Source: Serpentinicella alkaliphila
Lineage (GTDB): Bacteria > Bacillota > Clostridia > Peptostreptococcales > Natronincolaceae
Assembly: GCF_018141405.1 (NCBI RefSeq)
Contig: NZ_CP058648.1
Coordinates: 1 to 5,000, forward strand
Direction of reading: 5' to 3'
DNA length: 5,000 bases
The notes under the pieces were generated by a model, which ran no database searches, was not told the DNA's origin, and saw only the letters and a list, made by a program, of their open reading frames with translations. The position numbers were made by a program, and so were the translations under genes. Position 1 is the stretch's first letter. The number at the start of each line of letters is the position of its first letter. This document shows positions 1,002 to 4,717 of the stretch, piece after piece.

Positions 1002-1077
<76 letters not shown>

Positions 1078-1147
1078 ATATTGCAATCACCTAAATCTCC
1101 GATTTAGTGTGAGTGTAATACTCAGCATAATTTGAGTTTCATATTTA
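1078..1147 (-). repeat. Structured spacer repeat, copy A, upstream of tRNA-fMet
   Basis: This ~70-nt element also occurs upstream of tRNA-Ala (copy B, 4647-4717). In the minus transcript it has an AATATGAA start, a hairpin of stem ACTCA/TGAGT (plus 1120-1124 and 1133-1137), the shared linker TGAGTATTACA, then a perfect 7-bp hairpin CTAAATC-GGA-GATTTAG (plus 1091-1107). A 13-nt tail then runs to the tRNA 5' end. The linear identity with copy B is patchy: 11 nt at 1114-1124 and 8 nt at 1138-1145 are exact. The hairpins are kept by paired changes, which suggests a structured RNA. I do not recognise it. A role in tRNA 5' processing or transcript pausing is only a guess. Confidence 0.7.
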
Positions 1148-1500: not shown

Positions 1501-4421
<2,921 letters not shown>

Positions 4422-4424
4422 TTT

Positions 4425-4432
4425 AAAAGATG
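4425..4432 (-). other. 23S processing stem, 5' arm
   Basis: CATCTTTT in the minus transcript, three bases before the 23S 5' end. It is complementary to AAAAGATG of the 3' arm at 1492-1500. Together with the 8-bp terminal helix of 23S it makes a stem of about 16 bp with a small asymmetric A bulge. Confidence 0.7.
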
Positions 4433-4473
4433 CTTGTAAATTTCTTTACTTAACTTTATTTCTCACTTTGCAG

Positions 4474-4486
4474 TTTTCAAAGAACA
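4474..4486 (-). promoter_or_regulatory. boxA-like antitermination motif
   Basis: The minus transcript reads TGTTCTTTGAAAA, close to the bacterial rRNA boxA (E. coli TGCTCTTTAACAA) and to the form common in Firmicutes spacers. boxA RNA binds NusB-NusE (S10), which, with other Nus factors, makes RNA polymerase resistant to Rho termination across rRNA genes. It lies about 50 nt before 23S, a normal place for a second boxA in an rRNA operon. Confidence 0.7.
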
Positions 4487-4495
4487 CTTGTTCTT
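4480..4495 (-). other. Hairpin overlapping boxA
   Basis: AAGAAC at 4480-4485 is the exact reverse complement of GTTCTT at 4490-4495, with a 4-nt loop. In the transcript the second arm is the first half of boxA. The stem would therefore cover part of the NusB-NusE site, or act as a boxB-like structure next to it. It is short and could be coincidental, since boxA itself supplies one arm. Confidence 0.5.
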
Positions 4496-4517
4496 CCTGC
4501 CTTTTGGCCGGAATACT

Positions 4518-4546
4518 ATATTACCATCTTTTTATCTTCATGTCAA
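4518..4546 (-). promoter_or_regulatory. Promoter-like site inside the 16S-23S spacer
   Basis: On the minus strand there is a perfect -35 hexamer TTGACA (plus 4541-4546), a 17-bp spacer, and a -10-like TAATAT (plus 4518-4523; 4 of 6 to consensus) preceded by TGG, the extended -10 form. The start site would fall near plus 4511, about 25 nt before boxA and 90 nt before 23S. That order, promoter then boxA then rRNA, copies an rRNA leader. TATAGT one helical step away is an alternative -10 but would need a 20-bp spacer. A perfect -35 with optimal spacing in 150 bp of AT-rich DNA could still be chance. Confidence 0.5.
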
Positions 4547-4570
4547 TTGGTACTTGATGGCATTTGTTTG

Positions 4571-4646
4571 TGGTGGAGACGAGGAGAGTCGAACTCCTGA
4601 CCCCCTGCTTGCAAGGCAGGTGCTCTCCCAACTGAGCTACGCCCCC
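4571..4646 (-). tRNA. tRNA-Ala (anticodon UGC) in the 16S-23S spacer
   Basis: Minus-strand cloverleaf with acceptor GGGGGCG/CGTCTCC. This includes the G3-U70 wobble, the key alanine identity element (plus 4644 and 4578). Discriminator is A and CCA is at 4571-4573. Anticodon stem CCTGC/GCAGG closes loop CTTGCAA, anticodon UGC at 4611-4613. It is the only spacer tRNA. Repeat copy B lies immediately upstream, its hairpin ending 13 nt from the mature 5' end. Confidence 0.97.
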
Positions 4647-4717
4647 ATGTTACAACTTCCCAAATTTTAATTTGGTGTAGTTTGTAATACTCAAAGATTA
4701 GCCGAGCTTCATATTAA
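4647..4717 (-). repeat. Structured spacer repeat, copy B, upstream of tRNA-Ala
   Basis: Partner of copy A at 1078-1147. In the minus transcript: AATATGAA, a hairpin GCTCG/TGAGT (plus 4703-4707 and 4689-4693), linker TGAGTATTACA (4683-4693, exact match to copy A), a 7-bp hairpin CCAAATT/AATTTGG (4660-4675), then a 13-nt tail to tRNA-Ala. Two positions of the 7-bp stem differ from copy A, and both arms change so pairing is kept. The first stem has G-U pairs where copy A has A-U. On the plus strand these would be A-C mismatches, so the structure belongs to the minus-strand RNA. Confidence 0.7.

Follow-up and report, generated by a model that had tools for sequence, protein, structure and literature searches.

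What keeps a stretch of about 70 nt, capable of folding into hairpins, in front of two different tRNA genes of the same operon: selection on an RNA structure, the ancient duplication of a spacer, or an origin elsewhere? The question is raised by the window analysed here (the whole stretch of 5,000 nt from Serpentinicella alkaliphila), which consists of one rrn/tRNA operon on the minus strand, in the order 16S, tRNA-Ala, 23S, 5S and then a series of tRNAs. A sequence-only reading had placed the two copies at 1078-1147 and 4647-4717 and proposed a function next to the tRNAs, such as guiding RNase P, or else a spacer duplication.

The two copies of the window and their parts

Both copies were confirmed at these positions on the minus strand, copy 1 (1078..1147, model match 1078-1146) in the spacer between tRNA-Leu(TAA) and tRNA-fMet, and copy 2 (4647..4717, model match 4647-4716) in that between 16S and tRNA-Ala. 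The two spacers are 79% identical across 75 aligned columns, and the copies lie far above chance (BLAST E values of 1e-32 to 2e-5 within their own genome, model matches down to 2e-15). The order of parts also held as first read: AATATGAA, hairpin 2, TGAGTATTACA, hairpin 1 and then exactly 13 nt up to the tRNA. These 13 nt, however, are not a spacer but the 3' arm of hairpin 1: on folding, the linker TATTACA pairs with the last 13 nt before the tRNA, which extends hairpin 1 to ~18 bp, interrupted by a bulged A, and brings the element flush with the tRNA. The unit is thus A(T/G)GAA(A/G), a short hairpin 2 and the ~18-bp hairpin 1, and it ends at the base preceding the tRNA.

In copy 1, the unpaired box AATATGAA (1138..1145), conserved judging from sequence and alignment columns (family consensus A[T/G]GAAAC), is followed on the minus strand by an imperfect hairpin 2 (1120..1137, ACTCA/TGAGT) and by the full hairpin 1 (1079..1120), with outer arms TATTACACTCAC/GTGATTGCAATA, the bulged A and inner arms CTAAATC/GATTTAG; tRNA-fMet (1002..1077, minus), which starts CGCGGGG and has a C1-A72 mismatch, begins 0 nt further on. 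Copy 2 repeats this arrangement on the same strand, with the box at 4708..4715 (recognised on the same grounds), hairpin 2 at 4689..4707, hairpin 1 at 4648..4689 (outer TTACAA/TTGTAA, inner CCAAATT/AATTTGG; an intact sister copy exists) and tRNA-Ala(TGC) at 4571..4646, again at 0 nt. As had been read, two pairs of hairpin 1 differ between the copies (T-A/C-G and C-G/T-A), with both arms changed together. Hairpin 2 is damaged in both window copies (ACTCAAATTATGCTGAGT and GCTCGGCTAATCTTTGAGT), whereas the stem is perfect in sister copies (ACTCAGC-TAT-GCTGAGT, GCTCAGC-TAAT-GCTGAGT and the compensated GCTCGGC-TAAT-GCCGAGT), and one of them, L014:6365-6433, shows a compensated A-U to G-C change. 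Element and tRNA are predicted to fold independently within the precursor. An intrinsic terminator was considered and rejected on the sequence, given that an RNA gene follows hairpin 1 directly and there is no T-run. In other operons, the stretch from 5S to the next tRNA holds a terminator-like hairpin with a T-run that also starts with AATATGAA (L009:14486-14538, L012:6889-6977, L014:15989-16041).

BLAST with each copy, followed by covariance model R1, gave 15 copies in the source genome, all within rrn/tRNA clusters and in three settings: the 16S-tRNA-Ala spacer, the 16S-23S spacer lacking a tRNA and the tRNA-Leu-tRNA-fMet spacer, where copy 1 has three sisters (L009:8284-8351, L012:7072-7139, L013:5915-5978). 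The 16S-23S copies end against the 23S boxA-like TGTTCTTTGAAAACT, 64 nt before 23S. In the window, the spacer from tRNA-Ala to 23S (4422-4570, minus) contains a promoter-like TTGACA-17-TAATAT, a GCCAAAAGGC hairpin and the boxA TGTTCTTTGAAAACT, and resembles a second rrn leader within the operon. The rRNA regions of this assembly look unreliable, and defects of hairpin 2 in single copies are therefore not to be over-read. On the window contig (L010:7533-20000), the adjacent 23S genes are truncated or interrupted and there are long stretches of N; the 23S genes of the assembly score 2684-2821, against about 2990 in relatives. The tRNA-Thr at 559-631 is damaged (missed by ARAGORN, 47 bits with Rfam) and intact in a sister cluster (L009:7763-7837), being either a pseudogene or an assembly error.

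Covariation of the hairpins

Among 50 distinct sequences (alignment A9), 87.4% of the cells pair, compared with 77.7% after shuffling, double compensatory changes occur in 15 of the 24 pairs (8.0 when shuffled), and the cells with double changes number 113 against 33.4, a value reached in none of 500 shuffles; every slid control was also far below the observed covariation. The covariation expected of a cis-acting structured RNA is hence found above both kinds of control. An alignment fitted to a structure is biased towards it and related copies are not independent, but independent support comes from two distant clostridial genomes (G335 and G431), in which whole stems have been replaced. The departures from pairing are conserved too: the bulged A is kept in 49 of the 50 sequences, and an A-C mismatch near the foot of the stem persists, with the position unpaired in 40 of 49.

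Which strand, or which nucleic acid, has to fold? The first reading had argued from G-U pairs possible only in the minus transcript, an argument that does not generalise: outside the three conserved mismatch positions, G-U and A-C departures are about equally frequent (26 and 24), so there is no sign that the RNA strand, rather than the DNA, must fold. The G-U asymmetry was accordingly rejected as proof of RNA folding, since it is not seen.

Distribution and placement against stable RNA genes

Additional copies upstream of rRNA-operon tRNAs, the supporting result named by the sequence-only reading, came from searches with covariance models, both in the source genome and in relatives, and their stems show many more compensatory changes. 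Screening with model R1 and afterwards with R2 added four further genomes of the family (G003, G005, G016 and G019), four of another family of the same order (G088, G098, G103 and G107) and G024, the matches of G003 and four of those of G005 being antisense copies in 16S leaders. The hosts found by covariance models are other Natronincolaceae-like genomes, Marinisporobacter and, rarely, other clostridial lineages, and a pattern scan of named genomes identified Marinisporobacter sp. McD1.33 and McD2.5 and Alkaliphilus sp. NP8. G431 and G335 have one copy each, both flush with 5S and of the same shape, with stem sequences that are almost wholly different. The spread is patchy: counting the source genome, the element is present in 9 of the 297 genomes belonging to the order, in 2 of the 391 of a class sample and in 2 of the 398 of a phylum sample, the large searches having used strict filters that may pass over weak copies. 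Model matches of ~30 bits in G001, G004 and G011 were judged too weak to be included; G004 carries a related hairpin type. Comparison with Rfam returned no family covering the element, even at permissive thresholds: no Rfam 15 family exceeded its gathering threshold, only rRNA, tRNA, 5S, SRP and T-box being detected, and the weak matches (SNORD58, CRISPR-DR50, TD-1, ToxI) fell far below. The open-access literature searched holds no description of the element, most subscription papers lying outside that search.

Position was measured against the neighbouring stable-RNA genes. Taking the 68 window-type copies with a stable-RNA gene no more than 400 nt downstream (the antisense 16S-leader copies of G003 and G005 and the weak matches left out), the 3' end falls within -3 to +2 nt of the mature RNA 5' end in 56 and exactly at 0 in 38, bearing in mind that Rfam 5S starts may be off by 1-3, while upstream (5') distances are spread over 0-105 nt. 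The RNA partners comprise tRNA-Met/fMet, Thr, Leu, Gly, Pro, Arg, Ser, Ala and Ile, as well as 5S and 23S, and all window-type copies adjoining an RNA gene in this set are in sense orientation. After collapsing duplicates, 21 of the 27 distinct sites with both neighbours known were flush, against 7.9 expected and in none of 200,000 simulations. Most exceptions are instructive, in that four copies abut a 20-nt 5' fragment of a tRNA, with a further insertion after the fragment. Tandem copies occur before 5S, and window-type copies are also found at the ends of protein genes (L104, L111, L112). Two copies (L056:3617-3685 and L061:9103-9171) abut a lone tRNA-Ser(GGA), with a large SRP RNA gene directly after it.

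The claim of a structured element next to two tRNAs, with a function there, thus stands as far as the element covaries and recurs; it does not as regards its partners, which are neither these tRNAs in particular nor RNase P substrates alone, but also 5S, 23S and protein genes. With the hairpin ending 0-2 nt short of +1, hardly any of the leader stays single-stranded, which makes the suggested role as an RNase P guide unlikely.

Insertion, maturation and other explanations

The copies form one homologous, covarying family, placed flush with RNA genes in many unrelated contexts and patchy taxa, with filled and empty versions of the same junction both within and between genomes (Asn-Leu and Val-Asp in Marinisporobacter-type genomes, Tyr-Leu and Asp-Thr in G019). 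On balance, we lean towards an insertion-derived, MITE-like origin, that is, a dispersed non-coding element of ~70 nt with two hairpins whose 3' end is joined exactly to the boundaries of stable-RNA genes. Short, non-coding dispersed copies with empty sites are what MITEs show. The terminal inverted repeats of a MITE match those of an autonomous transposon; here the 3' hairpin of the element is itself an inverted repeat, and no such transposon was found. The foot of the ~18-bp hairpin, with its conserved bulged A, would be the joining end, and the hairpin would be recognised by a DNA-level mobility system acting in trans. Insertions may survive at the edges of RNA genes because the leader is discarded in maturation; in the precursor RNA, a self-contained hairpin would stack beside the acceptor stem and be removed with the leader.

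A related hairpin type, TAAGTGAC...CTACTTAT, has the same 43-nt architecture and is dispersed in G004 (55 pattern matches, none for the reversed control), where sense copies stand ahead of 5S and at the 5' end of 16S; antisense copies immediately follow the CCA ends of tRNA-Val, tRNA-Asp and tRNA-Ala. A unit of ~98 nt containing it has been inserted after nucleotide 20 of tRNA-Gly and tRNA-Thr in two orders (L099:2524-2641, L102:2931-3049 and 3575-3693, L095:18490-18607, L220:5133-5380), with tRNA nt 1-20 duplicated, exactly from +1 on, and is in tandem upstream of tRNA-Thr in a Tissierellales genome (L220). No target-site duplication was seen for the window-type element. This counts against the insertion-derived reading, and so does the search for an autonomous partner, which found none. 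Neither TnpB genes nor those of Y1/REP-type transposases have the element at their flanks, the complete genome G107 lacks TnpB, and a single copy lies near a tnpB (L169), just beyond the gene and in antisense. IS200/IS605 or REP parentage was rejected after searching PF07282 and PF01797 genes and their flanks, which showed no matching ends. Viral vectors were likewise rejected: pattern scans of viral contigs gave 3 and 0 matches, the three contigs having neither a model match nor a tRNA gene. Two further points are at odds with the preferred reading, namely the sense-only orientation next to RNA genes, which a simple orientation-neutral insertion does not predict, and the good pairing of the stems in most copies, which points to selection or gene conversion and not to decay.

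These same points are where the main rival draws its strength. A selected RNA-maturation module, in which the flush hairpin would help to form or protect the mature 5' end (for instance, by offering an endonuclease its site, by blocking a 5' exonuclease or by insulating the folding) and copies would be kept because they are functional, accounts for the strong covariation with its conserved bulged A and mismatches, for an alignment, exact and in sense only, with the 5' ends of mature RNAs from three classes, for the single copies abutting 5S in distant genomes and for the independent folding of element and tRNA. Nevertheless, we regard it as rather unlikely, since its rarity in the order and in the phylum sample indicates that the element is dispensable, the corresponding junction is without it in many operons of a genome that carries it, copies also lie between protein genes, the equal G-U and A-C departures give no strand-specific RNA signal and different enzymes mature the adjoining RNAs. 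A part in the maturation of precursors is possible but unproven, and it could coexist with mobility.

An insertion at the RNA level, by template switching that joined the 3' end of the element RNA to mature 5' ends, or by tRNA 3' ends that primed cDNA, the product then recombining into the chromosome, would explain why copies sit at mature ends, why antisense relatives immediately follow tRNA CCA ends and how the 20-nt duplication arose; it is nonetheless improbable, as no reverse transcriptase domain (RVT_1) is present in the complete, copy-rich G107 or was found in the drafts G088 and G431. Still less credit is due to a simple ancient duplication of one rrn spacer within the lineage, although the Leu-Met and 16S-Ala spacers are similar across the whole element and the copies of this genome occupy only three settings. 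The duplication proposed at first could hold, at most, for the copies within this one genome; in the window, where the element occupies two spacers of one operon, duplication of operons probably raised its number. Across the whole family, that proposal is contradicted by other genera and families, in which the element precedes many other RNAs without the neighbouring spacer. A repeat derived from insertion accounts better for one element standing before 5S, 23S and at least eight tRNA types, and for junctions that exist both filled and empty. Shared rrn spacers need not mean local duplication. The faintest prospect is that the matched changes reflect template-switch correction of a DNA quasi-palindrome and not selection on structure, in line with double changes that are mostly Watson-Crick with few intermediates and with the parity of G-U and A-C departures, but such correction would erase the bulged A and the A-C mismatch, whose persistence across genera argues against it in its simple form.

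How does the insertion-derived element compare with known systems? REP/REPIN palindromes are also short dispersed hairpins, some of them bulged, which are common between genes and spread in trans by REP-type (RAYT) transposases (PMC3116915, PMC6006769); unlike them, the element has no GT[AG]G at the hairpin foot (the alignment columns read (T/C)GAG before hairpin 1 and GAA(A/G) before hairpin 2), the RAYT-like genes here are not flanked by it and its placement is exact at stable-RNA ends. It resembles the ends of IS200/IS605 elements and their miniature derivatives in its imperfect hairpins with an unpaired base, but the TnpA/TnpB loci here have no ends that match it. The 5S expansion of Thermoanaerobacterium type shares the two unequal hairpins, the clostridial hosts and relatives in rRNA leaders and spacers, similar motifs having been noted there in other prokaryotes (PMC7812874). 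That expansion lies inside the 5S core, whereas the element is outside, flush with the 5' end; since the motifs were compared by description only, part of the family may have been glimpsed before in that remark. The 16S-23S spacers of Clostridioides difficile, with and without tRNA-Ala, likewise vary by module between operons (PMC3090617, PMC4164361), through 9-bp repeats and spacers of 20, 33 and 53 bp whose structure is reported as not conserved (PMC4164361). These modules were rejected as the same element, given that their published consensus sequences do not show it.

RNA genes are, as a rule, either left alone or disrupted by insertion elements. A family that meets mature RNA ends with single-base precision implies some rule of target choice, or else a part in maturation, and the sources searched describe neither. 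Tentatively, this may be an undescribed family of hairpins that either selects the precise ends of mature tRNA, 5S and 23S (and apparently, in a related form, 16S) or persists nowhere else. It would then be mobile DNA following a target rule of a new kind, or a module of general use in 5'-end maturation that spreads from one RNA gene to another. A natural experiment is at hand where the operons of one genome differ in having or lacking the hairpin at a given junction, so that effects on RNase P, 5S and 23S maturation are directly measurable. As for the related hairpin type, in G004 (L144-L161) it also terminates long dispersed repeats, TATCCTTCGGTGTATTGCTAAGAC...AACTAAGTGACTAACACC, which extend about 100 nt or more upstream of it.
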